Of a stretch of 22,277 bases of DNA, positions 2,052-19,477 are shown piece after piece. The stretch comes from a virus: IMG/VR virus record IMGVR_UViG_3300042881_003428, positions 1-22,277 of that record. The stretch is one strand, 5' to 3'. How positions within the stretch are numbered: position 1 is the first letter of the stretch; each line of letters opens with the position of its first letter. The notes below the pieces were generated by a model that was not told the origin of the DNA, ran no database searches, and worked only from the letters and a program-made list of their open reading frames with translations. Made by a program: the position numbers and the translations under genes.

Positions 2052-3411
2052 TGAATATCTACGAAAAGTTATTCCTTTTCTAAAGACAGAGTATTTTCAA
2101 CATGGTACTGAAAGAATAATTTTCAATGAAATTTCATCATTCGTATCATCTTACAATGCTCCACCAACGATTGAAGCTGTTACACTTGCCATTAAAGAGA
2201 AGAAAAATCTTACAGATGATCAAGTGGCGCAATGTGAAAGTTATCTACATGAAATTGTCGAAACTTCAAAAGAGACTTCCAAAATCGAGTGGTTACTTGA
2301 CAAATCCGAAATATTTTGTCAAGAAAAAGCGATATACAATGCTGTCTTGGAATCTATTTCTATACTCGATGGAAAAGACAAAACTAAAGAAAAAGGTGCA
2401 ATACCCAAGATATTGGCTGATGCATTGGGTGTAGGTTTTGATACAAACATTGGTCACGATTACTTAGAAAACTCCGATGAGCGATATGAATTCTATCATA
2501 GAAAAGAAGAAAGAATTCCATTCGATCTAGAATTCTTTAATAAGATCACAAAAGGTGGTCTACCCGCAAAGACATTGAACATTGCACTAGCGGGTACTGG
2601 TGTTGGTAAATCTTTATTCATGTGTCATGTTGCAGCAGGATGTATGGTGCAGGGAAAGAATGTTCTCTACATCACAATGGAGATGGCAGAAGAAAAGATT
2701 GCAGAGCGAATCGATGCAAATCTATTGAATGTAACAATTGATGAGCTTGCAACTTTATCCAAAGAAATGTATGACAAAAAAGTTGAAAGAGTAAGAAAGA
2801 ATACTACAGGAAAACTTATCATCAAAGAATATCCAACCGCAGCAGCATCTACTGTACATTTCAGGACACTTTTAAATGAACTTCATCTCAAACGCAGCTT
2901 CACTCCTGACATTATTTTTATTGATTATCTTAATATTTGCGCCTCCGCAAGAATCAAAGCAGGAGCAAATGTCAACTCATACACCTATGTCAAGTCAATT
3001 GCCGAAGAACTGCGAGGTCTTGCAGTTGAGTACGGAGTTCCAATCGTCAGTGCTACACAGACTACAAGAAGCGGATTTACTTCATCTGATCCCGGGCTCG
3101 AGGACACAAGTGAGTCTTTTGGTCTGCCAGCAACCGCAGACTTGATGTTTGCTTTGATAACATCCGAAGAACTTGAAGCCTTGAATCAGATTATGGTCAA
3201 GCAGTTGAAGAATCGTTATTCTGATCCTACGACACATAAGAGATTCGCTGTTGGTATTGACAAATCAAAGATGAGGCTGTATGATGTTGAACAAGCAGCA
3301 CAAAATGGTATAGTCGATGCAGGTAAAGTTGACGATAAGCCTCTGAATAGTTTTGGTGATAGAGAAAGACTGTCGGGTAAGAAGAATAAGTTTGGTGGCT
3401 TCAAGGTATAA
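2008..3411 (+). CDS. 41: gp41-like replicative DNA helicase (DnaB family)
   Basis: This is the hexameric 5'-3' replicative helicase of the phage replisome, which also works with primase. An N-terminal helical domain (about 1-150) is followed by a RecA-fold motor. Walker A is GTGVGKS at about 196-202, then YITMEMAEEKIAERIDA (DnaB motif H1a). Walker B is DIIFIDYLNI at about 301-310, a sensor segment SATQTTRSGF follows at about 346-355, and then DTSESFGLPATADL. Length (467 residues) fits T4 gp41. I chose the ATG at 2008; a TTG one codon upstream is possible. The gene begins inside the preceding one. Its stop codon is embedded in a T4-type late promoter that serves the next gene group. Confidence 0.95.
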   Translation: MKLEQTILKNLIYNDEYLRKVIPFLKTEYFQHGTERIIFNEISSFVSSYNAPPTIEAVTLAIKEKKNLTDDQVAQCESYLHEIVETSKETSKIEWLLDKSEIFCQEKAIYNAVLESISILDGKDKTKEKGAIPKILADALGVGFDTNIGHDYLENSDERYEFYHRKEERIPFDLEFFNKITKGGLPAKTLNIALAGTGVGKSLFMCHVAAGCMVQGKNVLYITMEMAEEKIAERIDANLLNVTIDELATLSKEMYDKKVERVRKNTTGKLIIKEYPTAAASTVHFRTLLNELHLKRSFTPDIIFIDYLNICASARIKAGANVNSYTYVKSIAEELRGLAVEYGVPIVSATQTTRSGFTSSDPGLEDTSESFGLPATADLMFALITSEELEALNQIMVKQLKNRYSDPTTHKRFAVGIDKSKMRLYDVEQAAQNGIVDAGKVDDKPLNSFGDRERLSGKKNKFGGFKV

Positions 3412-3414
3412 ATA
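3407..3414 (+). promoter_or_regulatory. T4-type late promoter TATAAATA
   Basis: This is an exact match to the T4 late consensus, which is recognised by the gp55 sigma factor with the sliding clamp as co-activator. It lies 27 bases upstream of the ATG at 3441 and contains the TAA stop of the helicase gene. It is positioned to drive the nuclease-like gene, the Fe-S carrier and possibly the whole glycan cassette late in infection. A perfect 12-base palindrome, ATATTCGAATAT, begins inside it at 3412. Confidence 0.65.
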
Positions 3415-3440: not shown

Positions 3441-4265
3441 ATGGGAATAAATGAAAAATCACTACTAGCAGAAAAAGCCGCATATAAAAAAGTAAAAACG
3501 CTTTTAGGAAATCCTGAAGAATTTGCTGTTCCTGCAGGATTTGGAACAGGATTTCCTGATTTTGGATTTACCATTTATATTAACAAAAAACGTGTTGATT
3601 TATTCTTTGAATACAAAGCAGACTACACGGCGCAAATGGGTTCAATGAGGAATTGGACATTTGACGGAGCAGAATTTGATGCTCCTGATGCTGATACTGA
3701 TACAGATAAACAACAACTTTTAGAAGTAATGAATGCCACACCAAAAGCAATAGCTAATGGAAAAAGATTACTAAAAGACTTCAACTTATACTTCGATACT
3801 CCACAAAAACCAATGTATAAGTTTAAAAAAATATCTTCCGGTATGCTTTCTGTAGAAAAAAATCTCCCAACAAGGAGAGTTAGACTTGAACATTTTGCAA
3901 ACAATACAGATAATTATTCAATTGCAAGTATTAATGATTCTACCTTAGGACAAAAAGTTTTAGATCACTATCATAAAAAATTTCATGCCAATTTAAATTC
4001 TGATGCTGATCATAGTATTATGTTTATGATGCTAGATGACACAATATGGTTTTTAGAAGAAACAGGAAACTTAACTTATCCAGAAAAGAAAATGGTTTCT
4101 GACTTATTTGGTGCAACGCAAATAACGGTGCTTAGAGAATTGGTCGCAAAGTTAGAAGTTCGTATTCAACCTAGAGGACTTAAAGATAAAAGTAAACCTA
4201 CATCAATAGATGTTATGGCTAATTTTAGACTGTCTAGAAAACCTGCAGGCGGAATTAAAGTATGA
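3441..4265 (+). CDS. PD-(D/E)XK nuclease-like phage protein
   Basis: I do not recognise a named family for this 274-residue protein, but residues 39-59 read P-D-F-G, then a beta strand, then E-Y-K, which is the layout of a PD-(D/E)XK nuclease core (D40, E57, K59). Upstream Glu residues at 26-27 could complete a metal site. The middle of the protein (about 75-95) carries an Asp-rich loop. The C-terminal half is mixed helix and strand and ends with basic residues. GAGG lies 10 bases before the ATG, and a late promoter lies at 3407-3414. Its neighbours are the replicative helicase and small conserved phage genes. DNA processing is a reasonable guess, for example recombination intermediates, packaging ends or host DNA. 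Nuclease activity is inference from a short motif. Confidence 0.7.
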   Translation: MGINEKSLLAEKAAYKKVKTLLGNPEEFAVPAGFGTGFPDFGFTIYINKKRVDLFFEYKADYTAQMGSMRNWTFDGAEFDAPDADTDTDKQQLLEVMNATPKAIANGKRLLKDFNLYFDTPQKPMYKFKKISSGMLSVEKNLPTRRVRLEHFANNTDNYSIASINDSTLGQKVLDHYHKKFHANLNSDADHSIMFMMLDDTIWFLEETGNLTYPEKKMVSDLFGATQITVLRELVAKLEVRIQPRGLKDKSKPTSIDVMANFRLSRKPAGGIKV

Positions 4266-4548: not shown

Positions 4549-4872
4549 ATGTTTACAGTAACAGAATCCGCAGCAAGCAAAATTAGAAAAATTATTGATG
4601 AAGAAGATCCTAACCTTAAACTTAGAATTTTTGTGCAAGGTGGTGGATGTTCTGGATTTAAATATGGATTTTCATTAGAAGAACTTCCTCCAGCAGATGA
4701 TGATTTTGCTTTTGAGAAAGATGGAATACAAGTAGTTATTGATAGTATGAGTATGCAGTATATGAATGATGCTGAAATTGATTATGAAGAAACGCTACTA
4801 GGAGCAGAGTTCAAAATAAAAAATCCAAATGTATCAGCGACTTGTGGGTGCGGATCATCATTCACGGTATAA
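4549..4872 (+). CDS. HesB/IscA/ErpA-type iron-sulfur carrier
   Basis: This is an A-type Fe-S carrier of 107 residues, the full family length. The three ligand cysteines are present: C34 in [11 protein letters not shown], and C99 and C101 in TCGCGSSF near the C-terminus, giving the family pattern C-x(64)-C-G-C. Such proteins accept Fe-S clusters from the Isc or Suf scaffold and hand them to apo-enzymes in the cytoplasm. HesB-like genes are known auxiliary genes of marine phages. The gene starts two bases after the upstream stop. It may support host Fe-S proteins during infection, or the phage's own RfbH-like dehydrase downstream, which should need a [2Fe-2S] cluster; that link is inference. 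I leave the symbol blank because erpA, iscA and hesB cannot be told apart here. Confidence 0.93.
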
Positions 4873-5320: not shown

Positions 5321-5947
5321 ATGAGCTTTTATGATTTTTATAGTAGCGTTAGAGGTAAATTGGAAAGGAGAGCGACAGGATTTGATTACATTTTTGATTA
5401 TCTAAAACAGATAAAAAATCCAGTAATAGTTGAAACTGGTTGTGCCAGACAAGAAAATAATTATGGTGGAGACGGACAAAGCAGTATTCTATTTGACAGA
5501 TTCATTCATGATCATGGTGGAGAATTTCACACTATAGATATTTCAGAAGAAAATGTCAACTATTGTAAAAGAAAAATATTAAGTTCAAATAGTCAAATAT
5601 ATTTAAATGATAGTATCACTCAACTAAAAATACTAAATGATGAGTTTCAGAAAGAAAATAAAAAAATTGATTTTCTTTATCTAGATAGTTTCGATGCAAG
5701 CACTATAGATACTCACATTACAGCAAAAAGTGCATTACATCATTTATACGAATTTATTACTATATTACCATCATTGAATTCTGATGCATTAATCGGTGTA
5801 GATGATAATTGGTACGAAATCCACGATAACAATACGTTACTTGAAGGAAGTGTTTGTGGGGGGAAAGGTCAATTCATTTTCGATTACATGAAAAGAATTG
5901 ATAACAATCCTTGTTATAATGGTTATCAAATAATTTGGAAATATTAA
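5321..5947 (+). CDS. SAM-dependent methyltransferase, class I fold
   Basis: This is a 208-residue protein with a Rossmann-type methyltransferase core. Motif I is VETGCARQ at about 37-44, where many relatives have an E-x-G-x-x-x-G pattern. The acidic residue that would bind the SAM ribose is in TIDIS (D73). A strand with IDFLYLDS follows at about 116-123, then a VDDN segment near 160-163. This resembles the Methyltransf_24-type enzymes often encoded in polysaccharide gene clusters. GAGG precedes the ATG by a few bases. As first gene of the glycosylation cassette it probably methylates a sugar or another small acceptor; the substrate cannot be read. The rest of the cassette follows almost without gaps. 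Confidence 0.8.
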   Translation: MSFYDFYSSVRGKLERRATGFDYIFDYLKQIKNPVIVETGCARQENNYGGDGQSSILFDRFIHDHGGEFHTIDISEENVNYCKRKILSSNSQIYLNDSITQLKILNDEFQKENKKIDFLYLDSFDASTIDTHITAKSALHHLYEFITILPSLNSDALIGVDDNWYEIHDNNTLLEGSVCGGKGQFIFDYMKRIDNNPCYNGYQIIWKY

Positions 5948-5948
5948 T

Positions 5949-6659
5949 ATGAGTGCTGTTGTCATTTTACCCACCACGGGTGCTCCTGAAGTTCGTCATG
6001 CAATTGAAAGTGTTCTAGCACAAACTTATCCGACAACTTGTTATGTTGTCTGTGATGGTAATCAATTCAAAGGTAAAGTCAAGGTTATTGTTGACAATTA
6101 CCTATCAAATAAAAATATCAAAATCTGTTTCTTACCAGAAAATGTTGGTGCAAACGGATTCTATGGCCACAGAGTTTATGCAGCATTCTCTCATCTAGTG
6201 AATGAAGATTATGTTTCATTCTTAGATCAAGATTGTTGGTTCGAACCAAATCATATTCAATCCTGCGTAGACACCATTCAAAAAAATAACTTAGAGTGGG
6301 CATACAGTCTAAGAAAAATCACAGATAAAGAAGGAAACTTCTTATGTAATGATGATTGCGAAAGTCTAGGTAAATGGCAAGCATGGACTAATGTTCACCA
6401 TATTGATACAAACACCTATTGCGTTCGCCGTGATGTTCTGATAAGATTAGCATCAGCTTGGCATGGTGGTTGGGGTCAAGATAGAGTATTCTTTCACACC
6501 ATTGCTTCACACTTTAAAGAATGGGATTGCACAAAAGATTACACCGTAAACTATATGCTTGATGGTAATCAAGGATCAGTATCGAAAGAATTCTTCGATC
6601 AAGGTAATAAAGTGATGTATGATTTTTATAAAGGAAAACTTCCTTGGCGAAAAGATTGA
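5949..6659 (+). CDS. GT2-family glycosyltransferase (GT-A fold)
   Basis: This is a 236-residue glycosyltransferase with the usual GT2 opening: AVVILPTTGAPEVRHAIESV at about 3-22, then the nucleotide-binding strand CYVVCDG at 31-37. The metal-binding D-x-D is D93-Q-D95 in SFLDQDCWFEP. Late motifs WHGGWGQDRVFF at about 172-183 occupy the acceptor/catalytic position, including a conserved-looking Asp. Enzymes of this family transfer a sugar from a nucleotide-sugar to a glycan or protein in the cytoplasm. No membrane anchor is present. The gene starts one base after the methyltransferase stop and its 3' end overlaps the next gene. Confidence 0.85.
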   Translation: MSAVVILPTTGAPEVRHAIESVLAQTYPTTCYVVCDGNQFKGKVKVIVDNYLSNKNIKICFLPENVGANGFYGHRVYAAFSHLVNEDYVSFLDQDCWFEPNHIQSCVDTIQKNNLEWAYSLRKITDKEGNFLCNDDCESLGKWQAWTNVHHIDTNTYCVRRDVLIRLASAWHGGWGQDRVFFHTIASHFKEWDCTKDYTVNYMLDGNQGSVSKEFFDQGNKVMYDFYKGKLPWRKD

Positions 6660-7435
6660 TAGTAGGTAAAACTAGTTTCATAGGAAAAGAACTAGCTAAA
6701 CTGAAGAATTATGATATCGTTGCATATAAAGATGTTCATCATGTTGATTTTTCTCAATATGATGGCGTAATTAATTGTGCATTGAATCCAGTATTCAAAA
6801 CTCAAACATATGATGAAACGATTGATGTTGATTATGAGATAGCAAGACTTGCATATGAAAATAACTGCCATTATGTAATGATATCAACTAGAAAAGTTTA
6901 TGGTTCATCATCAGAACTCAAGGCATACACTGAAGAAAGTCCTACGAATCCATTTGACTTTTATAGTGAAAACAAGTTAATATGTGAGAAAAAGATTCTA
7001 CAACAGTTTGGAGATAAGACTGTTGTTGTTCGTGGTTCTAATCTTTTTGGTTTTGAATTAGGAAGACAATCATTTATGGGTTTCTGCATGGATCAATTGA
7101 AACATAGCGAAAAGGTTATATTTTCAATCGGTCAAGAAACAAAAAGAGATTTTATTGACATATACACTTCATCTTTTCTGTTAGATTTAATCTCAAGAAA
7201 AAAATTAACAGGAATATATAATTTAAGTTCAAATCATGGACTTGAAATAGGTAAAGTAGCAAAACATCTGATTCGTGGTTATGGTAAAGGTGAGTTTTTA
7301 TGTACCAGTGATGTTATCAAAGAACAGTTTATCATAGACAACACAAAACTCACCGAAGAACTAAGAGTATCTCTTAACCCAATTTACATCACTGCTGTTA
7401 TTGAAGATTTAGGAAAAGAATTATGCAAGATATGA
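6644..7435 (+). CDS. NAD(P)-dependent epimerase/reductase (extended SDR)
   Basis: This is a 263-residue extended short-chain dehydrogenase of the nucleotide-sugar type. The dinucleotide loop is GKTSFIG at residues 8-14, where the middle Gly of the usual GxxGxxG is Ser. The STRKVYG strand at 81-87 carries the catalytic-serine position, and Y107-S-E-N-K111 is the YxxxK pair. A later RDFIDIYTS segment matches the common 'RDFIHVDD' position. The start is TTG at 6644, supported by AAGGA nine bases upstream; a second TTG at 6656 is less well placed. It overlaps the upstream gene by 16 bases. It probably changes a nucleotide-sugar, for example a 4-keto reduction or an epimerisation; the substrate is unknown. 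It resembles dTDP-rhamnose-pathway reductases in size and layout. Confidence 0.85.
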   Translation: MAKRLIVGKTSFIGKELAKLKNYDIVAYKDVHHVDFSQYDGVINCALNPVFKTQTYDETIDVDYEIARLAYENNCHYVMISTRKVYGSSSELKAYTEESPTNPFDFYSENKLICEKKILQQFGDKTVVVRGSNLFGFELGRQSFMGFCMDQLKHSEKVIFSIGQETKRDFIDIYTSSFLLDLISRKKLTGIYNLSSNHGLEIGKVAKHLIRGYGKGEFLCTSDVIKEQFIIDNTKLTEELRVSLNPIYITAVIEDLGKELCKI

Positions 7436-8271
7436 TTATTAGTGCTGTGTCCGAATATGGATACGACAAAATGAAATATTGGATCAATTCAATCAAGCAA
7501 TCTGGATTTCAAGGTAAGATTGGAGTAGTTGCATTCAATATCAAAGATGAAACACTTGAAAAATTAAAATCTGAAGGTGTTGAAGTTTATCTAACAACAA
7601 ACAATCGTAATAAAGATAATGATGGTTATTTGTTCGCAGAAGGCTTGACTTATCAAGTTCCTATGCTCAGACACTATTTTTATTGGGCAGTACTATCTGA
7701 AATGAAAGACATTCGCTATGTCATTTCTACAGATATATCTGATGTTGTGTTTCAACTGAATCCTTCTGTTTGGCTAGAAAATCATCTAAGCGACAAAAAA
7801 CTAAATTATGGATGTGAAGGTCTGTTATATAAACATGAAGCTTGGGGCAATGAAAATATGTTACATTGTTTTCCGCAAGTTTATGCTTACATGAAAGAAC
7901 GACCAATTTATAATGCTGGCTCCATGGCTGGCGAATTTGAGATGTTCAAAAACTTTTCACTTGCTGTTTCTTTAGCAATTAATAATGTTCAAAATCCAAC
8001 ACCAGATCAAGCCGGTGTTAATGTCATGTTATCAATTGAACCATATAAGTCTGTTACCAAGTTTAACGACCATGATACAAATTGGGCATGTGAATGTGGG
8101 ACTACAGTAGACCCAAGTAAAATAAACAGCTTCAGACCCTTCCTATTGAGTCCTGAGCCTATCTTTGATGGGGAATATGTTTATACAAGCAAAGGCGAGA
8201 AATATGTAATGGTACACCAATACAACAGAGTGCCAGAATGGAAAGAAAAGATTGAGAGAAAATATGGATAA
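7423..8271 (+). CDS. Glycosyltransferase-like protein with acidic D-x-x-D motif
   Basis: This is a 282-residue protein with a GT-A type layout. An N-terminal strand (MIISAVSEYG) is followed by helix and strand. A central segment YVISTDISDVVFQLNP at about 99-114 contains D104 and D107 in the place where metal-dependent GT-A enzymes keep their D-x-D. Related 'TD-x-x-DVVFQ-x-(D/N)P' segments occur in several uncharacterised eukaryotic and bacterial glycosyltransferase-like families. A Cys pair in WACECG at about 223-228 and a final MVHQYNR segment follow. The ATG at 7423 has AGGAAAAG upstream; ATG 7432 is an alternative. It overlaps both neighbours. Activity is inferred; donor and acceptor are unknown. 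Confidence 0.7.
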   Translation: MQDMIISAVSEYGYDKMKYWINSIKQSGFQGKIGVVAFNIKDETLEKLKSEGVEVYLTTNNRNKDNDGYLFAEGLTYQVPMLRHYFYWAVLSEMKDIRYVISTDISDVVFQLNPSVWLENHLSDKKLNYGCEGLLYKHEAWGNENMLHCFPQVYAYMKERPIYNAGSMAGEFEMFKNFSLAVSLAINNVQNPTPDQAGVNVMLSIEPYKSVTKFNDHDTNWACECGTTVDPSKINSFRPFLLSPEPIFDGEYVYTSKGEKYVMVHQYNRVPEWKEKIERKYG

Positions 8272-9100
8272 TAACATTTCAGTAGTTACAGCATTCTATG
8301 ACATTGGTAGAGGTAACTTACCAAAAGTTAAACATGGTAGAGAATTGCCATGGTATCAACACAGAGGTGTAGATACCTATTTTGATTTTTTTGAAAAATT
8401 AGCCAAACTTCAAAATGAAATGGTGATTTATACGACACCTGACTTTGAAGATAGAATAAGCACAATAAGAAAAAATCATGGCCTAGAAGAACTGACGAAA
8501 GTTGTTACTACGGAATCTTATTTGCCTGAAGGCTTCGAACTGACAAAGGCCATGGTGCAAAAAGTGATGGATGATCCTAGCTATTATGGTAAGGTAGTCA
8601 ACCCACAACTCATAGAATATTGGCATGCCGATTATGTCCTCGTGAATATCTTTAAATCTTGGTATGCAGTTGATGCTATAAAAAGAGGTTTAATTCATAA
8701 CGACCTAACTGCCTGGATTGACTTTGGGTATGTGAGAAATGATATGGTGATACCCCCAAAAAACAAATGGTCATACAATTTCGACAGAGAGAAAATACAC
8801 TTCTTTAATCAGCATCCCATCGATAAGTATAGGTCAATTGATAGTATCATTTATACTGGAGATGTTTATATTCAAGGTTGTCATATTGTAGCTGGAACTG
8901 AAAAATGGAAACTACTAAAACAACTTGTATTGAAGAATGTAGAACTCTTGCTTGAAAATAATTTAATTGATGATGACCAAACACTTCTTCTAATGTCGTA
9001 TCTATCAAGTCCACAAAATTGTGAATTACATCCTGCTGATCCAAATGATTGGTTCAGAATATTCAGAACATATAATGATCACACATACGATGACGCATGA
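8264..9100 (+). CDS. HtrL/YibB-family protein
   Basis: This 278-residue protein opens with SVVTAFYDIGRGN at about 5-17, the signature start of the HtrL/YibB family, named after an E. coli gene next to the LPS core cluster. Later features that fit are the paired W-H-x-D-Y segment EYWHADYVLVN, the strand AWIDFGYVRN at about 149-158 (an acidic site like the GT-A D-x-D), and a conserved G-C-H segment after a glycine-rich turn. The family's biochemical role is not settled; the fold and neighbours suggest a glycosyltransferase. I chose the ATG at 8264, which overlaps the upstream stop by 8 bases, over a TTG at 8252. The protein lacks a membrane segment. Confidence 0.82.
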   Translation: MDNNISVVTAFYDIGRGNLPKVKHGRELPWYQHRGVDTYFDFFEKLAKLQNEMVIYTTPDFEDRISTIRKNHGLEELTKVVTTESYLPEGFELTKAMVQKVMDDPSYYGKVVNPQLIEYWHADYVLVNIFKSWYAVDAIKRGLIHNDLTAWIDFGYVRNDMVIPPKNKWSYNFDREKIHFFNQHPIDKYRSIDSIIYTGDVYIQGCHIVAGTEKWKLLKQLVLKNVELLLENNLIDDDQTLLLMSYLSSPQNCELHPADPNDWFRIFRTYNDHTYDDA

Positions 9101-9819
9101 TTAAAATAATTTCACCAAGAATTCATAATCTAGGAGACTTCATGAATTGTCTTCCTGCGTTATCTGGATTCTACAATAATTATGGAGTAAAAATAAGTCT
9201 TAGCATTTGCGATAGACTGCAAAGATTTAGAGGAATAAAAGAACTTTTGATGCATCAAGAAATGTTTCATGATGTTAAATTCCTATGTGAAGAATCTAAT
9301 ATACCAGAAAAATATATTATACTAGATGACACTGGACCAATTATTGATACTTCGGATGTCAATCCTTATGTAACACAAAAATATGCAAGTTTCATCAATA
9401 TACAACCAGACTCAAATTTTGAACTAAAAATTAAAGATATTGAGGTAGAAGATGTTGGAGATAAAGTCATCATTGGAGATAGATGGTCACCAAAAGATGC
9501 TCCAGATGTAGATGAAAGACGATACTCAAATATGATCGAAAGTGAACAAATTGTACCAAAAGAAAATGCACATTATCTTGATTACAATAAAGATTTGAAT
9601 TATAATCTAAATCTCATTAAGAAAAATAAGTATCCTTTAATTACCACGTTTACTGGAATTGGAATCCTTGCAGATTTAATGAAAAAAGATTTATTTGTTT
9701 TGTGGGGCGATGATGTGAGAAACTGGAATGGTAAACCCGTACAGCATTCTTTCGATAATCATTATTATAAAAATCGTGGAGCCAAATTAGTTTATGTGAA
9801 AGATTTTCAATGGATTTAA
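9097..9819 (+). CDS. GT9-like (heptosyltransferase-fold) protein, short
   Basis: This is a 240-residue protein that starts IISPRIHNLGDFMNCLPALSGFY, close to the 'R-x-x-x-x-GD-x-x-x-x-x-P-x-(I/L)' opening of GT9 heptosyltransferase-type GT-B proteins. The C-terminal half has strand VIIGDRW at about 128-134 and ITTFTGIGILADLMKK at about 181-196, which corresponds to the region where GT9 enzymes bind the donor diphosphate. It is about 100 residues shorter than a normal heptosyltransferase, so it may be a reduced or divergent form. It is coupled by ATGA to the HtrL-like gene and overlaps the following methyltransferase gene by 10 bases. Function in glycan building is inferred from fold features and context. 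Confidence 0.6.
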   Translation: MIKIISPRIHNLGDFMNCLPALSGFYNNYGVKISLSICDRLQRFRGIKELLMHQEMFHDVKFLCEESNIPEKYIILDDTGPIIDTSDVNPYVTQKYASFINIQPDSNFELKIKDIEVEDVGDKVIIGDRWSPKDAPDVDERRYSNMIESEQIVPKENAHYLDYNKDLNYNLNLIKKNKYPLITTFTGIGILADLMKKDLFVLWGDDVRNWNGKPVQHSFDNHYYKNRGAKLVYVKDFQWI

Positions 9820-10298
9820 TTAAATTTAATCAAAGATATTATCCTGCATTTCAATCCGAAGGGAACTCATCTCAGTTTGCAATTCCATTTGCAAAATATT
9901 TCTGCAAAGGAAAAGGATATGATATTGGTTGTAATCGTTTAGAGTGGGCATATCCAGGCTCTATTCCCATCGACTTGAATTTTCAAGATCCTTGGGAAGC
10001 ATATAACTTGCCAGAAGAAAAGGTCGATTACATTTACTCAAGTCATTGTTTGGAACACTTGTCTGATTGGGTAGCCGCACTAGATTATTGGACTTCAAAA
10101 ATAAAAGACAATGGAATTTTATTTCTTTATTTACCACATTATAATCAAGAATATTGGAGACCATGGAATAATAAAAAACATAAACACGTTTTTACTCCAC
10201 AATTAATTAATGATTATATGTTAGATAAGAATTATAAGAATATATTTTATTCTGAAAGAGACTTAAACGATTCCTTCATGATAGTCGGTGAAAAATGA
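9810..10298 (+). CDS. Small SAM-dependent methyltransferase
   Basis: This is a 162-residue protein of the Methyltransf_11/FkbM-neighbour type. Motif I is GYDIGCNR at about 36-43 (degenerate, with Cys in place of one Gly). D54 (in IPIDLNF) is the acidic SAM-ribose position. Motif IV is DYIYSSHCLEHLSDW at about 73-87, a very typical 'S-x-x-LEHL' segment, followed by GILFLYLPHYNQEYW. The size is minimal for the family and only the core domain is present. Small methyltransferases like this are common in bacterial and phage polysaccharide clusters. The gene overlaps both neighbours, including a 4-base ATGA with the next gene. The acceptor is unknown. Confidence 0.82.
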   Translation: MDLIKFNQRYYPAFQSEGNSSQFAIPFAKYFCKGKGYDIGCNRLEWAYPGSIPIDLNFQDPWEAYNLPEEKVDYIYSSHCLEHLSDWVAALDYWTSKIKDNGILFLYLPHYNQEYWRPWNNKKHKHVFTPQLINDYMLDKNYKNIFYSERDLNDSFMIVGEK

Positions 10299-10999
10299 TT
10301 ATTAATATTGAACCTTGGACTTTCGGTGGTCCTATGCGTAATGGTGATTTGATTGCACTGTTGAATTTTATCGTGCATCTACAAAAAGAAGATGCGAACA
10401 TAAAGATTCATGTTCCCAATAGGTCAATACAAACATCAGAGTATGTAATTAAATTTAGAGATTGGCTAGAAGATAATACACATTTTCTATCAAAAGAACC
10501 AGGAACTCATTCTTTCTCCGAAAGAGATGTAAATCTATGGGATTATAGATCAGTTACAGGCGATCTTCTTGAACTAAATTTTAATAAAACTATTGAAAAT
10601 AAAATATGTATTTTTCCTGTCATTGACGCACCATATAATGTATATCGTAACTGGTCAATTGCAATGATAAATGGTATTATCGATCATTACATGAAACCAG
10701 AATACGAAGGGTATACTAAAATTTTGGGAATGCAGAACATAGATAATAGAATCAATCAACAAGATTTTGTTGTCTCGACAGACTTCATTCAAAACATTGA
10801 ACACATTATTACATGTAGTCATTTTGTTGGTGGTGACACGGGAACATCACATTTTGCTGCTGTTCTTCCCGTAAAAGAGAAGTTGAATTATTATTATGGT
10901 TCTGTGGGTTTACTGCATACTACGCCGCTATATGCCTTACAAGGAAAAGGAAATATTAATTTGTTTTGGAAAAATAATTGGAGAACTGACTTACTATGA
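10295..10999 (+). CDS. GT9-like glycosyltransferase, short
   Basis: This is a 234-residue GT-B-like protein. The clearest feature is HFVGGDTGTSHFAAVLP at about 175-191, the 'G-x-D-(T/S)-G-x-x-H-x-A-A' segment that GT9 heptosyltransferases use to bind the donor sugar nucleotide. An N-terminal FGGPMRNGDLIALLNF at about 10-25 takes the place of the family's N-terminal glycine-rich loop. The protein is well below the usual length of about 350, like the other GT9-like gene two positions upstream, with a methyltransferase between them. Both ends use ATGA overlaps. It probably transfers a sugar to a host or phage glycan; donor and acceptor are unknown. Confidence 0.68.
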   Translation: MIINIEPWTFGGPMRNGDLIALLNFIVHLQKEDANIKIHVPNRSIQTSEYVIKFRDWLEDNTHFLSKEPGTHSFSERDVNLWDYRSVTGDLLELNFNKTIENKICIFPVIDAPYNVYRNWSIAMINGIIDHYMKPEYEGYTKILGMQNIDNRINQQDFVVSTDFIQNIEHIITCSHFVGGDTGTSHFAAVLPVKEKLNYYYGSVGLLHTTPLYALQGKGNINLFWKNNWRTDLL

Positions 11000-11703
11000 A
11001 AATTAAATTATTCAGTCACATGGTAGACATCGGCTGCGGTAAAGAGATCACAGCAGAACAAACAGAACTTTTAGAAAAGACTGGTTTACTTGATGAAATA
11101 GAACTCGGCTATTTCTTTGCACACTACAATAAAGAAAACTATGCATGGCTAGAAGAAAGATGGAAAGATAGAAAGAATATCGATATTCTACATTACAATC
11201 AAGACTATCAACCATGGTATGAAGCCACCTCAGTAAACTATCTTCAAGAATATTGCCACGAATATGATGATGAATACTATGTGTGCTTTATCACACACAA
11301 AGGTGCTAGCCACGGTCCTGGAGGACATCAAAACTGGCGCAAATACATGCAGTATTGGAACATAGAGAAATGGAAAGAATGTGTCGCTAAATTGGATGAA
11401 GGTTATGACATGTGTGGTGCTGCATTTTTGAATAATCCGCCGCATCCTTTTTATGCTGGTAATTTTTTCTGGGCAAAAGCATCATACCTTAGAAAGTGCC
11501 GTAGATTAAAAACGCCACTTGAGAATATGTTCAAACCACAATTCGAAGGACAACCTCATCATCGTTTTGATCTTGAATGTTGGCATGGCAGTGGTAACCC
11601 AAATGCATATGATATGCATCCAGGCGAAACAAATCGTTGGTATTTACCTCCTGAAACATATCGTGAAGATATGGAAGGAACTTTTGTATATAGAACATCC
11701 TGA
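10996..11703 (+). CDS. Glycosyltransferase-like protein of unknown family
   Basis: This is a 235-residue protein that is unusually rich in Trp, Tyr and His. It begins with a strand IKLFSHMVDIGCG. Later come YYVCFITHKGASH, a helix, and CGAAFLNNPPHPFYAGNFFWAKASYLRKC at about 139-168. 'G-N-(F/W)-(F/W)-W-A-x-(A/S)-x-Y' segments of this kind occur in uncharacterised nucleotide-sugar-transferase-like proteins from marine phages and bacterial polysaccharide clusters. It ends with RWYLPPETYREDMEGTFVYR. No D-x-D is evident, so I cannot assign catalysis. Coupling by ATGA to the GT9-like gene before it, and the RfbH-like gene 13 bases after it, place it in the glycan pathway. Confidence 0.62.
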   Translation: MKIKLFSHMVDIGCGKEITAEQTELLEKTGLLDEIELGYFFAHYNKENYAWLEERWKDRKNIDILHYNQDYQPWYEATSVNYLQEYCHEYDDEYYVCFITHKGASHGPGGHQNWRKYMQYWNIEKWKECVAKLDEGYDMCGAAFLNNPPHPFYAGNFFWAKASYLRKCRRLKTPLENMFKPQFEGQPHHRFDLECWHGSGNPNAYDMHPGETNRWYLPPETYREDMEGTFVYRTS

Positions 11704-11716
11704 ACGGAGAAATTGA

Positions 11717-12997
11717 ATGACGCCGAATGAAATGATCGATGCACTGTCAAAATCAGTGCAACCAAAATATGTTAAGAACTACGATAACTATCAAGAAGGA
11801 CAGTTCGTACAATATTCGGGACAACTCTGGGACCATAATGAAATATATGCTGCTATTGATACCCTAGTAAATGGTTCTTGGATAGTTTCAGGAGAAAAAG
11901 TAGAACAATTTCAAAATGAGTTTAGCAAAAAATTCAATGTCAAATACTCTCACATGGTGAACTCGGGAAGTTCAGCTAATCTTGTTCTTATTACCGCAGC
12001 AAAAAAATATAACAACTGGAAAGATGGAGATGAAATCATTGTATCGCCCGTGGGTTTTCCCACTACGATAGCTCCTATTATTCAGAATGGCATGAAGCCT
12101 GTTTTCATTGATATTGAACTCGATACATTAAACTTTGATATATTGAAAATAGAAGAAAAGATTACTTCAAAGACTAGAGCAATTTTTGTTTCTCCTGTTT
12201 TAGGTAACCCTCCAGATATGGATTTTATTGTTGCTTTATGCAACAAATACGGTCTGACACTTTTGGGTGATAATTGTGATTCTTTAGGTTCTCTTTGGAA
12301 TGGTAGATTAATTACTGATTATTATGATGCATGGACAACATCGTTCTATCCAGCACATCACATTAGTACGGGTGAAGGTGGTATGGTATGCTCAAATAGT
12401 GAAACATTCATCAAAGAAGCAAGAAGCATTTCGTGGTGGGGTAGAGATTGTTATTGTGTAGGAGCAAATAATCTACTTGAATGTGGCACTTGCGGAAAAA
12501 GATTTGATAACTGGTTAGATGATTATGATGGTGTCATTGATCACAAATATTTGTTTACTAACATCGGTTACAATCTAAAACCTCTAGACTTACAAGGTGC
12601 AATTGGCCTAGAGCAGTTGAAAAAATTTGATATGCTTGAAAGCAAACGCAGAGAATACAAAGAAAAGATTCAGAAGTTTATTGAAGATAATATTTCTGGT
12701 GCAAGAGTAATCAATGCAACACCAGGTTCTGATCCATCATGGTTTGGGGTACCTATCTATTGTGAATCCCAAGAAATGAAAGAGTATATGGTATCACATT
12801 TCGAGAATCACAAAATTCAAACTAGAAACTATTTCAGTGGAAATATTCTATTGCATCCTGGATATAAACATCTAGATGACTATAAGAAATACCCGAACTC
12901 TAATCTAGCTTTGAGTAATGTATTTTTCATTGGCTGCTCTCCACTATACAATGAAAAAGTATTGAAGTACATCGAAGGAGTATGTCAACAATGGTGA
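11717..12997 (+). CDS. rfbH: RfbH-like CDP-4-keto-6-deoxyglucose-3-dehydrase
   Basis: This is a DegT/DnrJ/EryC1/StrS-fold protein of 426 residues, close to the E1/RfbH length (about 437). Two features point to the dehydrase subgroup. First, the usual catalytic Lys is replaced by His in SFYPAHHISTGEGG (H214, with H215 next to it), so no internal PLP aldimine can form. Second, cysteines C187, C245, C247 and C259 match the [2Fe-2S] ligands of E1. RfbH enzymes use PMP with a reductase partner to remove the 3-hydroxyl on the way to 3,6-dideoxyhexoses such as abequose, paratose and tyvelose. C256 is an extra cysteine, and the C247-C259 spacing is four residues longer than the form I remember. The upstream rfbF/rfbG steps and the reductase partner are not in the window. 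GGAG precedes the ATG. Confidence 0.85.
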   Translation: MTPNEMIDALSKSVQPKYVKNYDNYQEGQFVQYSGQLWDHNEIYAAIDTLVNGSWIVSGEKVEQFQNEFSKKFNVKYSHMVNSGSSANLVLITAAKKYNNWKDGDEIIVSPVGFPTTIAPIIQNGMKPVFIDIELDTLNFDILKIEEKITSKTRAIFVSPVLGNPPDMDFIVALCNKYGLTLLGDNCDSLGSLWNGRLITDYYDAWTTSFYPAHHISTGEGGMVCSNSETFIKEARSISWWGRDCYCVGANNLLECGTCGKRFDNWLDDYDGVIDHKYLFTNIGYNLKPLDLQGAIGLEQLKKFDMLESKRREYKEKIQKFIEDNISGARVINATPGSDPSWFGVPIYCESQEMKEYMVSHFENHKIQTRNYFSGNILLHPGYKHLDDYKKYPNSNLALSNVFFIGCSPLYNEKVLKYIEGVCQQW

Positions 12998-13800
12998 ACA
13001 TTTTAGGTGCTGGATTTGTCGGTGGTGAGTATGCAAAACTCACTCCTAATGTAATTGTCAATGGGAGGAACGATTACGAAGTAAAGTCTAATGAGGTTCT
13101 TTACTTCATTTCGACAGTAGACAACTATAATGTTTGGACAGACCCTTATATTGATATTGATACAAATCTAACGACACTTATTAAGACACTAGAAACCTGC
13201 AAAGGAAAAGACGTTACATTTAATTTTGTAAGTTCTTGGTTTGTATATGGAAACGTTGATTTGCCAGCTAAAGAGACTGCCTGCTGCGACCCCAAAGGTT
13301 TTTATAGCATCACAAAAAGAGCAGCAGAACAGCTACTCATTTCATATTGTGAAACCTTCAATATTAAATATAGAATTCTGAGATTGGCAAATGTCTTAGG
13401 TGCGGCTGATAAAAAGGTATCAAAAAAGAAGAATGCCTTACAGTACATGATACAAGAACTACAAGCTGGAAACACAGTTCAGCTATATGATGGCGGTGAA
13501 GCCTACAGGGATTACATCTATGTCAACGATGCAATTCGTGCTATCAATTTAGTTCTACAAAAAGGAAAAGTCAACGAAATCTATAACATAGGAAATGGTA
13601 TTCCTATTCGTTTAGTTGATGCTATTACCTATGCCGCACAAAAACTATCATCATCATCTAACGTGGAAAGTGTTGCAACTGCTGAATTCCACAAAGTCGT
13701 ACAGACTACCAATATGGTTCTAGATGTTACCAAGATCAAACAATTGGGCTATGTACAGAACCATACAATTTATGATATTATAGACGATTTAATCATATAA
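12991..13800 (+). CDS. NAD(P)-dependent sugar epimerase/reductase (extended SDR)
   Basis: This is a 269-residue extended SDR. The dinucleotide-binding loop is GAGFVGG at residues 6-12. The SSWFVYG strand is at 81-87 and the catalytic Y105-S-I-T-K109 follows. RDYIYVNDAIRAI at about 167-179 is the family's 'RD-(F/Y)-(I/V)-x-V-x-D' segment, followed by YNIGNG. It directly follows the RfbH-like gene, so a 4-keto reductase role like that of CDP-paratose or CDP-abequose synthase is plausible but not proven. I prefer the ATG at 12991 because AAGGAG ends 10 bases before it; the ATG at 12982 is only one base from that site. The stop codon lies inside a late promoter. Confidence 0.85.
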   Translation: MVNILGAGFVGGEYAKLTPNVIVNGRNDYEVKSNEVLYFISTVDNYNVWTDPYIDIDTNLTTLIKTLETCKGKDVTFNFVSSWFVYGNVDLPAKETACCDPKGFYSITKRAAEQLLISYCETFNIKYRILRLANVLGAADKKVSKKKNALQYMIQELQAGNTVQLYDGGEAYRDYIYVNDAIRAINLVLQKGKVNEIYNIGNGIPIRLVDAITYAAQKLSSSSNVESVATAEFHKVVQTTNMVLDVTKIKQLGYVQNHTIYDIIDDLII

Positions 13801-13803
13801 ATA
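13796..13803 (+). promoter_or_regulatory. T4-type late promoter TATAAATA
   Basis: This is an exact late consensus 40 bases upstream of the chosen ATG at 13844. It carries the TAA stop of the preceding sugar reductase. By T4 spacing, transcription would begin about 6 bases downstream, near 13809. It marks the switch from the glycan cassette to the late module of enzymes and virion-type proteins. Confidence 0.7.
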
Positions 13804-15019: not shown

Positions 15020-16432
15020 ATGTTATCAATACAGAAAAAGCTTTGGATAGAAAAGGCAGGATTACTAACGGAGTCTTTCGGAGACGATCATGACTATAAG
15101 AGTTTAAAGCCTGCACATTCATTTAAGACAAATGATAACCATAATATCGACGTTCATGTTTTTAATAATCCCAAAGGTCAACATGCAGTTTTTTTTAATA
15201 AAAATCTAAATGCAGTAACCAAACTTGTTCATTGGAATCATGGTGCAGACAGACCAAGTCCTGAAGATTTAGAAAAAGCAGGTCATGATGAGAAAGAACA
15301 CCTATCGGAATCAGAAAAACTAAAAAATCTATCTCCCGACTCTGCGGGAAAAATAGTAGAACATTCTACTATTGTTCATTTAATTCACCATGTACATAAA
15401 GAGAAGGGTACATATGGGACTCCCGAACATAAAGCAGAAATATCACCACACGAAAAAGAAATAAAAAAATTAGGTTCGGGTGTTCATCATGATCAAGTTG
15501 AACTGAGAAAAGAACATGGAAGAGCCGCTGCTCATGCCATGGTCGAAACAATAAAAATGGAACATGGTCCAAAAGCTAAAATTCACAGAGTAGGTCATAC
15601 ATCAAAAAGCGGTGACATTGAAAAATTTACTAGTGGCAAGCATAAAGATACTCAAGAAAATCCATCCGATGTAGCTGTTCATATTAAAAAATCATCTAAG
15701 GCTACAGAAAATGAAAAAGATCACTATCATGGAGGATCTCTAAAATCTTCTGGAAAATCATCTCAAATAACAGCTAAAAATCCAGCAATACACATGCACG
15801 GTCTTTTAGATCATCCAACAAGAAGTTTCAATGCAGAAAAAATTTCAAGACAAGGATTGAAAAAAATACATACGGATATGGGTCATGGTGATAAGTCTGC
15901 CACAGAAAGAGGTAGAATGATTGATGCTGCAAGAAAAGACAAGAAAAAAGATATCAAAGAAGAATACTTAGAAGAAAAAGCACCATCACTCACAAATATA
16001 GAAAGTAAAGCAAACGAACTTGGAAAAAAAGTAAAAGTAAATATTGCAAAAGAACTACACTCTCATATCCATCATTTATTGCACAATGTTGGTGATGAAG
16101 GTCATCACATGATTGGAAAAATGCTTAGACATCATTTAGCACCAGAAACTACTATGCCTTTTTCAAAGATCCATGTAAAAGGAGATAAACCAAATAAAGT
16201 CCACGCTACAGTGACTTCTGGAAGTGATTCTCCGATACATAAAATTATTAATAATCCGAAATCTAGATATGCTGCAACTAGAAGCGGAGAAAGAGTCACA
16301 ATTCACCATGTCGAAAAAGATGGATCACATACTGCTTTGGCACACTACTCACCAAAAACAAAGAGTAATGCATTTAAATCGGATGTTCATGGCTGGAATG
16401 TAGTTCCCGCAAATACACACTCAAAAAGCTAA
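15020..16432 (+). CDS. His-rich late protein with possible PD-(D/E)XK-like core
   Basis: This is a 470-residue unrecognised protein, unusually rich in His, Lys and Ser with few Cys or Trp. It starts directly after the ligase-like gene. The segment 214-242, NPSDVAVHI followed by HGGSLKSSG, has the layout D217, strand, S240-L-K242, which fits PD-(D/E)XK folds that use S/A-x-K instead of E-x-K. KNPAIHMHG follows. Residues about 318-322 (YLEEK) contain an L-x-E site, the T4 prohead protease type, and divide the protein into an enzyme-like first part and a basic His-rich second part (about 340-470). A nuclease-like core in the capsid or a DNA-binding virion protein are both possible; neither is established. 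Confidence 0.6.
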   Translation: MLSIQKKLWIEKAGLLTESFGDDHDYKSLKPAHSFKTNDNHNIDVHVFNNPKGQHAVFFNKNLNAVTKLVHWNHGADRPSPEDLEKAGHDEKEHLSESEKLKNLSPDSAGKIVEHSTIVHLIHHVHKEKGTYGTPEHKAEISPHEKEIKKLGSGVHHDQVELRKEHGRAAAHAMVETIKMEHGPKAKIHRVGHTSKSGDIEKFTSGKHKDTQENPSDVAVHIKKSSKATENEKDHYHGGSLKSSGKSSQITAKNPAIHMHGLLDHPTRSFNAEKISRQGLKKIHTDMGHGDKSATERGRMIDAARKDKKKDIKEEYLEEKAPSLTNIESKANELGKKVKVNIAKELHSHIHHLLHNVGDEGHHMIGKMLRHHLAPETTMPFSKIHVKGDKPNKVHATVTSGSDSPIHKIINNPKSRYAATRSGERVTIHHVEKDGSHTALAHYSPKTKSNAFKSDVHGWNVVPANTHSKS

Positions 16433-16434
16433 AA

Positions 16435-18303
16435 ATGAAAAGATTTTCACAACTATTAGAAGAAAACCAGAAAAAACTGACGATGCTGTTTGGTCGTATG
16501 AATCCTCCCACTAAAGGTCATGAGGAGAATGTTGAAGGTCTAAAACAAACAGCAGAAAAAGAAAAGTCAGATCATCTAGTAATTGCATCACACTCGCAGG
16601 ATGCCAAAAAGAATCCTTTATCTCCAGATACGAAACTGAAGCATTTAAAAAGAGCATTTCCTGATACAAATATCATCACATCAAGCAAAGAGAAGCCTAC
16701 CATTATGCACCATGCATCTGATGCACATGCTAAAGGCTATACTCATCTTCATGTTATTGCTGGTGCAGACAGAGTTGATGAATATAGAAGATTACTTAAT
16801 CATTACAATGGTAGAACACATGATGAGGCTGGTAGACCATTTAAACATGGTTCATATAACTTCAAAAAGATAACTGTATCATCATCTGGTGAAAGAACAA
16901 AAGGTATATCTGGAACAGATATGCGTAATCATGCACAGAATAATGATTACAAATCGTTCAAGAGCAATCTATCTTCTCATATGCAGAAGAATGATAAACA
17001 TGCTAAAGAACTATTTCATGATGTTCGCAAAGGAATGGGTCTAAATGAAAATGTAAGTAGAGGTATGTTCAAAGCAATCTTCATTACTGGTGGACCTGGT
17101 TCAGGAAAAGACATTGTTATTCGTGAAGGTGTTGCTGAACAAAAAGCAGTAGAACTAAGCACAATACAAGCATTTGAATATCTGATGGATAAAAAGAAAC
17201 TGTCAGAACAAAGTAAAGATTTTCGTAGAGAAGCTATTAGAAATCGCTCTCCATTAATCATCAATGGAACAGCAGATAACTTTGATAACATAGCAACGAT
17301 CAAAGAAGAATTAGAAGAACTTGGATATACCACAATGATGGTATACGTTGATACTCTAAATGAAGTTAGCCGTCAAAGAAACCTTGGACTGAAAAGAATG
17401 ATCTCAGAGTCAGTTCGTGAAGAAAAGTGGGTGAAAGCTCAAGAGAATAAAGTTAAGTTTTACAGTATGTTCAATGATTTCAATCTATTTGAAAACAATG
17501 ATAACTTAGAGATTGTTGAGGAATCTATTAGTGATGTTTACGATCACATCAACGAATTTTTAGATAAAGATAGTTTAAATGAAATCTCTACTGATTGGTT
17601 GATGAGAAATAAAAAATTAAATATTAACGAGAAGGTTTCTTTACTTTTTAAGGAGCAACAAAATGATTCAATGGATTCTAAATCTATTCAAAAAGCCAAC
17701 ATCAGAGCAAAAGGTTGTGGAAAACACGGAAGCCTCCTCTTTGACAACAACTGTCCAAGCTGCCAAATTACCAGAAAAGCAGGAAGACAAGACGATGTTA
17801 GAGACGGAGACGTTGCCAGTAACTCCAGTTACATCTTCAGAACCTACGTTGAAGGAAGAGGACCCACCCTCAAAGCCAGCCCGCCGCCCAAGGAAAGCAA
17901 CTTCAGCAAAGACAAAGAAAAAATAAAGAAAAAAGGATTGGTCGATTCCCCAACACAGAATCAAAGACTGAGAAATGTGGCAGGAATAGGACCTGAATAT
18001 GACACTAGACAACAAGGAACTGTATATCCCATGTCTGGTCTGGGAGATGTAACCTATCGTGAGGATGTAGAACCTTCGCATGATAAATATATGAAGGAAG
18101 GTACCGCAGCAGGACTTCGCAAAAGTTTCAACAAGTTCAGAACTCAAAAAGAAGCAATAGACGATCCTGGTGCTGTAGATATGGGAGTTGGTGGTGTTCT
18201 AATGGGAGCATCAAACAAAGAACCCATGCAAACATACAAGGATCAAGATAAAACAGTTGGTCTGCTAATTAAAAAGAACAAGAAACAAAAACAGGAGAAA
18301 TAA
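16435..18303 (+). CDS. Nucleotidylyltransferase-P-loop kinase fusion with long tail
   Basis: Residues 1-190 are a HIGH-superfamily nucleotidylyltransferase: GRMNPPTKGH at 20-29 and ISGTDMR at 158-164 (the ISSTxxR position). Residues about 211-375 are a P-loop kinase: AIFITGGPGSGKD with Walker A at 219-226, an Asp after the Lys instead of Ser or Thr, then RREAIRNRSPLIINGTADN and a YVDT strand. NadR has the same two activities in this order, but its kinase P-loop differs, so the substrate is open (NMN, a sugar or lipid head group, or a nucleotide). The N-terminus MKRFSQLLEE resembles a capsid-targeting peptide. From about 410 to 500 the protein overlaps a second open frame (17663-17926) and has a composition unlike the rest; the tail about 505-622 looks genuine again. 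No clear ribosome binding site is visible. Confidence 0.8.
   Translation: MKRFSQLLEENQKKLTMLFGRMNPPTKGHEENVEGLKQTAEKEKSDHLVIASHSQDAKKNPLSPDTKLKHLKRAFPDTNIITSSKEKPTIMHHASDAHAKGYTHLHVIAGADRVDEYRRLLNHYNGRTHDEAGRPFKHGSYNFKKITVSSSGERTKGISGTDMRNHAQNNDYKSFKSNLSSHMQKNDKHAKELFHDVRKGMGLNENVSRGMFKAIFITGGPGSGKDIVIREGVAEQKAVELSTIQAFEYLMDKKKLSEQSKDFRREAIRNRSPLIINGTADNFDNIATIKEELEELGYTTMMVYVDTLNEVSRQRNLGLKRMISESVREEKWVKAQENKVKFYSMFNDFNLFENNDNLEIVEESISDVYDHINEFLDKDSLNEISTDWLMRNKKLNINEKVSLLFKEQQNDSMDSKSIQKANIRAKGCGKHGSLLFDNNCPSCQITRKAGRQDDVRDGDVASNSSYIFRTYVEGRGPTLKASPPPKESNFSKDKEKIKKKGLVDSPTQNQRLRNVAGIGPEYDTRQQGTVYPMSGLGDVTYREDVEPSHDKYMKEGTAAGLRKSFNKFRTQKEAIDDPGAVDMGVGGVLMGASNKEPMQTYKDQDKTVGLLIKKNKKQKQEK
17663..17926 (+). 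CDS. Nested ORF inside the kinase gene, other frame
   Basis: This is an 87-codon frame one base out of step with the long gene. It has a better ribosome binding site than most genes here: AAGGAG ending at 17655, 7 bases before the ATG. The product starts MIQWILNLFKK, has an acidic Thr/Pro/Glu-rich middle, and ends in a basic PARRPRKATSAKTKKK tail. It reads like a small disordered phage protein. Codon use in this frame resembles the neighbours, while the long frame here uses many AAC, GAC and AGC codons. Either this is an overprinted gene, or a separate small gene became embedded when the reading frame stayed open. Both readings leave the long frame open. Confidence 0.55.
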   Translation: MIQWILNLFKKPTSEQKVVENTEASSLTTTVQAAKLPEKQEDKTMLETETLPVTPVTSSEPTLKEEDPPSKPARRPRKATSAKTKKK

Positions 18304-18304
18304 C

Positions 18305-19477
18305 ATGTTCGCTAAAGACAAAGTGTCGCAGTCTCTAATTGATGCTGTTAATAAAGTCATCACAAAAGAAGAAGTTAAAGAACAGCTAAACGAGGCATTC
18401 CCAACTGTTGATGATGCTAAGAAAAGAATGGCCGCTGCTTCAGGTCCAAAACCTAGCGGTGGAGCTGGTATCAAATTAGGTACACGCTATGGTGGTGGTA
18501 AACAAGCTGATGAGCCAGAGAGTGATGAGGATGAAAAGCCAAAAGCAAAAAGAGAAAAATATGGTGCTCGTAAAACCCGTTTCACTAATACCAAACTATA
18601 CAAAGAAGATGAGGTTCAAGAGGAACTAAAAGGCAATCAACATAAAATTGATGCTAATAAGAATGGAAAGATCGATGCACATGATTTTCAGCTCCTCCGT
18701 GGTAAGAAAAAGAAAATGACAGAAGGACATGCATTTGCAGAGCGTCTAGTGGAATCAATGTATGGCAAAAAGTCTGCACTACCAATAGACGAAACAGAAA
18801 TGTCTGACGCTCAGAAAAAGAAAAAAGAAGAAATCGTTATGTCTATGAAAAAAGACACAGCAGGTCTTAAAAAGCGTTACGGTTCTCGCTGGAAAGATGT
18901 AATGTATGCTACTGCAACAAAACAAGCAATGAAAGAAGATGTTGAAGTAGAAGAAGAAATCGATCCTAATGTTCGCACAAAAGATGCTGTATCTGGAGCA
19001 AACAAACCAACTAAACAAAAAGATGATGTTGGTCCAGGCTCAGATGGAAGAAGCACAAAAGTGAAATTCAAAGGCGGTCCAATGGACGAAGAAAAAGAAA
19101 ATGAGAAAGAAGATGAAGGACATGAGGACGAAGCAGAAGATAAAAAGCTAGTCAAGAAGATGGTGAAGAAAGATGCTTTGAAGGAAGAAGAACTTGATGA
19201 AGCAGCTAAGAAAAAAGCTCCTTATGATAGAGATGAAGTTGCGAAAAAAATAGGTGCTGCTATGAATAAAGCGGATGATGCAGTTCGAAAAGGTCGTGCT
19301 GAACGTGAGGCTGCAAGAGCAATTGCTACGGCAAAATACGGTAGTAAAATGAAAGAAGAAGTTGAACTTGATGAAGGAACCGAAAAGAAAGAAAGAAAAC
19401 TAAAATCTTTCTTAACAATGAAAAAAGAAATGCTTGGTAAAGCTGGTATGACTTCAGAGAAAAAAGATGAAGAATAA
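18305..19477 (+). CDS. Charged internal-head or scaffold-like protein with EF-hand
   Basis: This 390-residue protein is very rich in Lys, Glu, Asp and Ala with little hydrophobic core, like phage internal or scaffolding proteins. Residues 116-127 form a textbook EF-hand loop, DANKNGKIDAHD, with ligands at positions 1, 3, 5, 7, 9 and 12, followed by F-x-L-L-R. Near-repeats of K-E-E-V-E-L-D-E occur at about 211-219, 295-301 and 350-358. LxE sites (LNE|A at 28-31, LDE|A, LDE|G) fit T4 gp21 prohead protease cleavage. RYGSRWKDVMYATATKQA at about 191-208 and a similar ARAIATAKYGS at about 337-347 look like small helical modules. AGGAGA lies 7 bases upstream of the ATG. The product is inferred to be a virion-associated or prohead-core component. 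Confidence 0.72.
   Translation: MFAKDKVSQSLIDAVNKVITKEEVKEQLNEAFPTVDDAKKRMAAASGPKPSGGAGIKLGTRYGGGKQADEPESDEDEKPKAKREKYGARKTRFTNTKLYKEDEVQEELKGNQHKIDANKNGKIDAHDFQLLRGKKKKMTEGHAFAERLVESMYGKKSALPIDETEMSDAQKKKKEEIVMSMKKDTAGLKKRYGSRWKDVMYATATKQAMKEDVEVEEEIDPNVRTKDAVSGANKPTKQKDDVGPGSDGRSTKVKFKGGPMDEEKENEKEDEGHEDEAEDKKLVKKMVKKDALKEEELDEAAKKKAPYDRDEVAKKIGAAMNKADDAVRKGRAEREAARAIATAKYGSKMKEEVELDEGTEKKERKLKSFLTMKKEMLGKAGMTSEKKDEE
18650..18685 (+). other. EF-hand calcium-binding loop (within the charged protein)
   Basis: Codons 116-127 of the 18305 gene encode a 12-residue loop with D1, N3, N5, G6, K7, I8, D9 and D12, the standard spacing of Ca2+ ligands in EF-hand and dockerin-like loops. It stands alone; I found no second loop in this protein. 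Confidence 0.7.

Follow-up and report, generated by a model that had tools for sequence, protein, structure and literature searches.

The sugar-gene cassette and its putative dideoxysugar enzymes

The window, by which we mean the whole 22,277-nucleotide stretch analysed, is a 22 kb virus record from a T4-like phage. Positions 5321-13800 hold eleven ORFs, all on the + strand and mostly overlapping; eight of the ten junctions overlap by 4-16 bases, and the other two are gaps of 1 base and, ahead of the RfbH gene, of 13. UvsX, gp41 and an IscA-like protein are the left neighbours of this cassette, and DUF6267 followed by virion-type genes lies to its right. The features are listed below, islands being the equivalent gene runs of relatives.

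3407..3414, +, T4-type late-promoter motif TATAAATA a little past gp41 and 34 bases ahead of the ORF at 3441; same position in relatives L009, L011, L012, L016 and L019
5321..5947, +, g1, methyltransferase-like, a variable gene (Methyltransf_24 below the Pfam cut-off; PHROG 24975 at 3.6e-36; 6 of 53 islands)
5949..6659, +, g2, GT2 glycosyltransferase, near-constant leading island gene (49.3 bits, cut-off 23.3; 42 of 44 islands)
6644..7435, +, g3, RmlD-like SDR (RmlD/Epimerase match)
7423..8271, +, g4, putative transferase, near-constant (weak phrog_1579 glycosyltransferase match, E 0.0033; 41 of 44 islands)
8264..9100, +, g5, HtrL_YibB family, putative transferase of LOS-type loci (E 4.5e-48)
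9097..9819, +, g6, unassigned, by eye like a GT-B/GT9 start motif; swapped in close relatives (56%)
9810..10298, +, g7, methyltransferase (Methyltransf_23); missing in the closest relatives
10295..10999, +, g8, GT-B/GT9 (WaaC-like) by model; swapped in close relatives (41-44%)
10996..11703, +, g9, weakly GT-A-like by model
11717..12997, +, g10, RfbH/E1-type PLP [2Fe-2S] 3-dehydrase; catalytic His and four Cys kept
12982..13800, +, g11, SDR of epimerase/4-ketoreductase type; after RfbH in 22 of 23 RfbH-bearing islands
13796..13803, +, late-promoter motif TATAAATA between the cassette and the DUF6267 gene, putative right boundary of the unit (41 of 46 islands)

The cassette or variants of it were found again in dozens of contigs, which excludes a chance assembly of genes. 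The ORFs and family matches agree with the initial annotation, which had described a glycosyltransferase and sugar-nucleotide cassette in a T4-like phage; such genes are contiguous here in a T4-like genome, as in the LPS or glycan clusters of T4-like phages. Among the transferase-like proteins, only GT2 and HtrL_YibB exceed a curated cut-off, and the number of glycosyltransferases is therefore in part predicted. No Pfam domain was detected in g4, g6, g8 or g9, and PDB profile searches with their alignments returned noise only. Modelled from an alignment of relatives, g8 is predicted to adopt a GT-B, GT9/WaaC-like fold (pLDDT 84; Foldseek probability up to 0.99, E about 1e-2), and g9 a fold with weak GT-A likeness (pLDDT 75; E 1e-4, TM about 0.4).

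The g10 protein belongs to the DegT family and is closest to RfbH. It scores 365.9 bits against NF011936, below the 423-bit equivalog cut-off, and is thus best described as RfbH-like rather than by one exact substrate. It aligns to RfbH/E1 (PDB 3bcx) over 390 residues, conserving Cys193, Cys251, Cys253 and Cys261, which we take to be the [2Fe-2S] cluster ligands, together with His220, the PLP histidine that replaces lysine. These motifs are present in 82 of 82 phage copies, a set that was not de-duplicated. A phage-encoded partner reductase, E3, was considered and rejected, as no Fer2 domain was found in 14 related records; a host reductase would hence be needed.

No first activation step was found in the window, as the initial annotation had stated, and NTP_transferase occurs in only two of 14 related records. 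An SDR lies directly before RfbH in L009, L011, L013, L023 and L070, and that of L009 exceeds the RmlB cut-off (439 versus 365 bits); L025 carries RmlB, the 4,6-dehydratase, and an RmlA-like gene. The earlier view of host precursors is modified by these relatives, some of which have their own RmlB next to RfbH and one also an RmlA-like gene. For the cassette, a host-fed pathway to some NDP-dideoxyhexose is the natural prediction.

Neither the window cassette nor the set of 497 island ORFs contains a convincing membrane protein; two of the 497 pass a simple hydrophobicity test for membrane segments, one of them on the minus strand. The absence of a flippase or polymerase noted previously extends to both sets. 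Neither the membrane flippase and polymerase of Wzx/Wzy O-antigen clusters nor the membrane proteins GtrA, GtrB and Gtr of serotype conversion occur in the cassette or the island ORFs. This near-absence of membrane proteins fits both extension of lipid A-core at the cytoplasmic face and glycosylation of virion proteins.

DNA decoration, which would shield the phage genome from restriction, had also been offered as a role, and T4 provides a precedent for phage glycosyltransferases. Against it, a thymidylate-synthase-fold enzyme (the dCMP hydroxymethylase fold) was found in none of five related records, a Tet_JBP search run without a positive control gave no match, and we know of no DNA glycosylation set that includes RfbH or methyltransferases. 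This option is disfavoured, and we regard it as very improbable.

Several neighbouring genes deserve mention. The IscA-like gene (4549-4872), an A-type Fe-S carrier, adjoins a cassette that encodes an Fe-S enzyme. Its candidacy as the cluster-loading partner of RfbH was rejected, as it has no match in close relatives with RfbH; further evidence against the link comes from phage C48C1, which has a NifU-like gene and no cassette beside gp41. Between DUF6267 and the next conserved gene lies a His-rich ORF of 470 residues with no family (15020-16432), present in L002 and L005 and missing from most relatives. The protein encoded at 16435-18303 combines cytidylyltransferase-like and zeta-toxin-like kinase domains, which are two ORFs in relative G002. 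Two charged, low-complexity proteins at 18305-20615 contain repeated L/V-x-E-type motifs like those of T4-like prohead protease substrates and, judged by eye, are possibly internal head proteins.

A fixed site with variable contents

Relatives were gathered from 522 viral stretches with RfbH matches and, independently of RfbH, by DUF6267 and gp41 scans. Upstream sequence was long enough at 70 DUF6267 loci; 37 of them match RfbH strongly and 33 do not, one of the latter (L180) holding a partial RfbH. The island set comprises 44 complete, non-redundant islands from relatives whose gp41 is at least 70% identical where measurable. All 44 lie between gp41 and DUF6267. They contain 6-15 genes each, drawn from 65 families and arranged in 39 distinct orders from g2 onward; RfbH occurs in 23, and in 22 of these an SDR follows it. 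In phages further removed (gp41 65-69%) the distance from gp41 to DUF6267 is only 1.6-2.6 kb, and C48C1 carries no such cassette after gp41. Variant islands also encode a sugar C-methyltransferase, a hexapeptide-repeat protein, DUF5672 and a fused HAD phosphatase/nucleotidyltransferase, the last joining a HAD phosphatase to a sugar nucleotidyltransferase (L033:14327-15721). A DruA-like protein (PF14236, E 1.2e-8) occurs in the leader between gp41 and the island (L025:2031-3134; family f#11, 14 loci).

The UvsX of the window is closest to those of Kyanoviridae phage C48C1 and of Stenotrophomonas and Acidovorax phages, and DUF6267 is found in cyanophages, HTVC008M and methylophages. The 163 kb relative G002, with a gp41 94% identical, has T4 core genes, 24 tRNA genes and a permuted tmRNA with a match to the betaproteobacterial tmRNA family of Rfam (RF01850, 158 bits; tag ANDERFALAA; L082:14946-15328, with G002 also covering L086-L087). 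A cyanophage host, an idea taken from a megablast match to Syn9 gp41, was rejected: psbA is absent from the records of six relatives, including those of 161 and 163 kb. Since a close relative has a betaproteobacterial tmRNA and no psbA, the lineage, judged through these relatives, likely has a betaproteobacterial host.

Compared with L009 and L011, the window has a gp41 98-100% identical and an RfbH 94-95% identical, with g6 at 56% and g8 at 41-44%; g1, g7 and the genes preceding RfbH differ. In trees, g8 of the window clusters with L036, L070 and L080 (100% SH-aLRT), whereas its RfbH and g2 cluster with L009 and L011 (97% and 96% SH-aLRT). The differences in g6-g8 between near-identical phages, together with these incongruent trees, indicate that modules are exchanged between phages of the lineage. 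The initial annotation had proposed comparing the locus between related phages, and the comparison reveals variable content and such exchange; it had held that constant core genes with a known structural role would speak against its view, and only g2 and g4 proved near-constant, with no structural role known.

The cassette genes are under purifying selection. Where like alleles were correctly paired, their dN/dS is about 0.04-0.19, near that of core genes; g11 entries involving L009 were ignored, since the L009 partner is RmlB. These values argue against functionless stuffer DNA for headful packaging, a possibility raised in PMC3037559, as do the catalytic motifs kept in every RfbH copy, the fixed site and the island's leading genes. 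The selection data already contradict the stuffer explanation, to which we give hardly any credence.

Late-promoter motifs and the putative glycan acceptor

TATAAAT has been used as a T4 late-promoter motif (PMC3037559). The T4 late-promoter motif TATAAATA stands before DUF6267 in 41 of 46 islands, where 0.5 are expected, and in 373 kb of island interior the motif occurs once, where 28 copies are expected. G002 has eight copies, all on the + strand, six of which lie 10-70 bases before ORFs, namely DUF6267, the ORF that follows gp41, gp48, the scaffold gene, a tail-tube gene and a small ORF downstream of the portal gene. The + strand count in G002 is not above chance; the reverse strand has none against 9 expected.

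On the left side, the copy at 3407..3414 is likely the start of the unit holding the cassette. Exact TATAAATA directly after gp41 is found in only 6 of 30 islands. Of 29 leaders between gp41 and g2, 24 contain forward NATAAATA and none a reverse copy; the forward motif stands 15-70 bases before an ORF start in only 14 of the 29. This varied placement makes the left boundary less uniform than the right. Scans for sigma-70 promoters and terminators gave chance levels. Because TATAAATA precedes DUF6267 and is depleted inside islands, and forward NATAAATA occurs in the leaders, the cassette most likely forms its own late unit, as far as motif positions can tell. Read-through into it from upstream middle promoters is possible.

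We tentatively propose, at a little under an even chance, that the cassette represents one allele of a polymorphic island for glycan synthesis, which makes a dideoxysugar-containing oligosaccharide late, on host LOS, hiding receptors. The host (in some relatives phage RmlB, in one RmlA) would supply NDP-4-keto-6-deoxyglucose, from which RfbH would strip the 3-OH using electrons from a host reductase, and g11 and/or g3 would turn the product into an NDP-3,6-dideoxyhexose by reduction or epimerisation. The transferase-like proteins, starting with the near-constant g2 and g4, would assemble a short oligosaccharide, and g1/g7 would methylate it. The favoured acceptor would be newly made lipid A-core (LOS) at the cytoplasmic face of the inner membrane; export of the modified LOS would follow the host MsbA/Lpt route, so that a phage flippase would not be needed. 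The changed surface would mask receptors, both against competing phages and against the progeny that the phage releases at lysis.

Of the candidate acceptors, the host surface is our first choice and the virion our second. The fixed site, conserved leading genes and shuffled content resemble bacterial O-antigen or LOS outer-core loci, and exchange of g6-g8 between phages otherwise 94-100% alike would be expected if a glycan recogniser selects for change. HtrL_YibB occurs in LOS loci of Acinetobacter, E. coli, Salmonella and Campylobacter (PMC4172580). Also consistent with LOS are the intact RfbH motifs, RmlB next to RfbH in relatives, the WaaC-like g8 model, the low dN/dS and the lack of convincing membrane proteins among the island ORFs, as for LOS-core enzymes. 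Against it, late-promoter bracketing is odd for early exclusion of rivals, little fresh LOS may be made late in lytic infection, RfbH falls below its equivalog cut-off with no E3 reductase found, and g2 and g4 are near-constant although hosts presumably differ, a pattern that a phage-encoded acceptor fits better.

The same soluble enzymes, made late with structural proteins, could instead decorate a phage capsid, Hoc-like or fibre protein, an explanation we hold to be possible if doubtful. The motifs on both sides, the virion-type genes directly downstream and the solubility of all the enzymes suit it, as does the near-constancy of g2 and g4 with a conserved phage acceptor, and a passage of PMC12619734 cites a precedent in the glycosylated capsids and tails of mycobacteriophages. 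Yet the gene families look like LOS/O-antigen enzymes, it is not obvious why virion sugars should diversify fast in water, and no acceptor site is known. That a late-controlled, polymorphic island resembling an O-antigen locus glycosylates the own virions of a lytic T4-like lineage, yielding virions in many exchangeable glycan types, seems to us rather unlikely. That the sugars end up elsewhere, for instance on host proteins or on a small molecule that is secreted, is improbable: secondary-metabolite clusters have been proposed for some cyanophages in a jumbo-phage review (PMC7824862), but the islands examined encode no scaffold-forming enzyme.

Relation to known sugar loci

Sugar clusters of T4-like phages have so far been labelled LPS genes, superinfection exclusion or stuffer DNA without test. 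Here, the sequence reveals constraint, a fixed site headed by two near-constant genes, transferase modules that near-identical phages have exchanged, and late-promoter motifs on either side, which together narrow the question mainly to host surface or virion. The findings suggest a locus by which the phage probably diversifies sugars on the surface of the bacterium it infects or of its own particles.

The LPS clusters of T4-like cyanophages P-SSM2, S-SSM7 and S-SM2 (PMC3037559, PMC7824862) are likewise runs of glycosyltransferase and sugar-nucleotide genes, polymorphic between relatives and of putative function. They sit near hli03/phoH and tRNAs, whereas the island of the window is flanked by gp41 and DUF6267, has a late-promoter motif at either end and belongs to phages lacking psbA. 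The glycosyltransferases of the pelagimyophage host recognition cluster (PMC7029224) come from a related phage type, are hypervariable and have been proposed to serve coinfection avoidance; they differ in being mixed with tail-fibre genes and mostly GT8, and no late promoters were found there. Freshwater pelagimyophages lack LPS genes (PMC7029224). The cultured Synechococcus phages S-H68, RN05-S and S-B43 (MK016663, PV261924, MN018232) encode an RfbH with about 55% identity in an extended sugar cluster, close to a gene of the dTDP-glucose 4,6-dehydratase type, but their clusters follow a gp9-like baseplate gene, are much larger, and contain fucosyltransferases and another transferase set.

The CDP-4-keto-6-deoxyglucose 3-dehydrase RfbH/E1 (3bcx) shares its catalytic His and four Fe-S Cys with g10; the phage differs in having no partner reductase that we could find, and the substrate nucleotide of g10 may differ. 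The Acinetobacter LOS outer-core loci OCL5 and OCL6 (PMC4172580) similarly combine a fixed site with variable transferase content, with HtrL_YibB in one form of OCL locus and a dTDP-sugar operon in another, but they are bacterial and use other glycosyltransferase families. A small literature search found no paper describing such an island. T4-like cyanophages and pelagimyophages are already known to carry LPS-like clusters; the fixed-site, late-bounded, modular form appears new.
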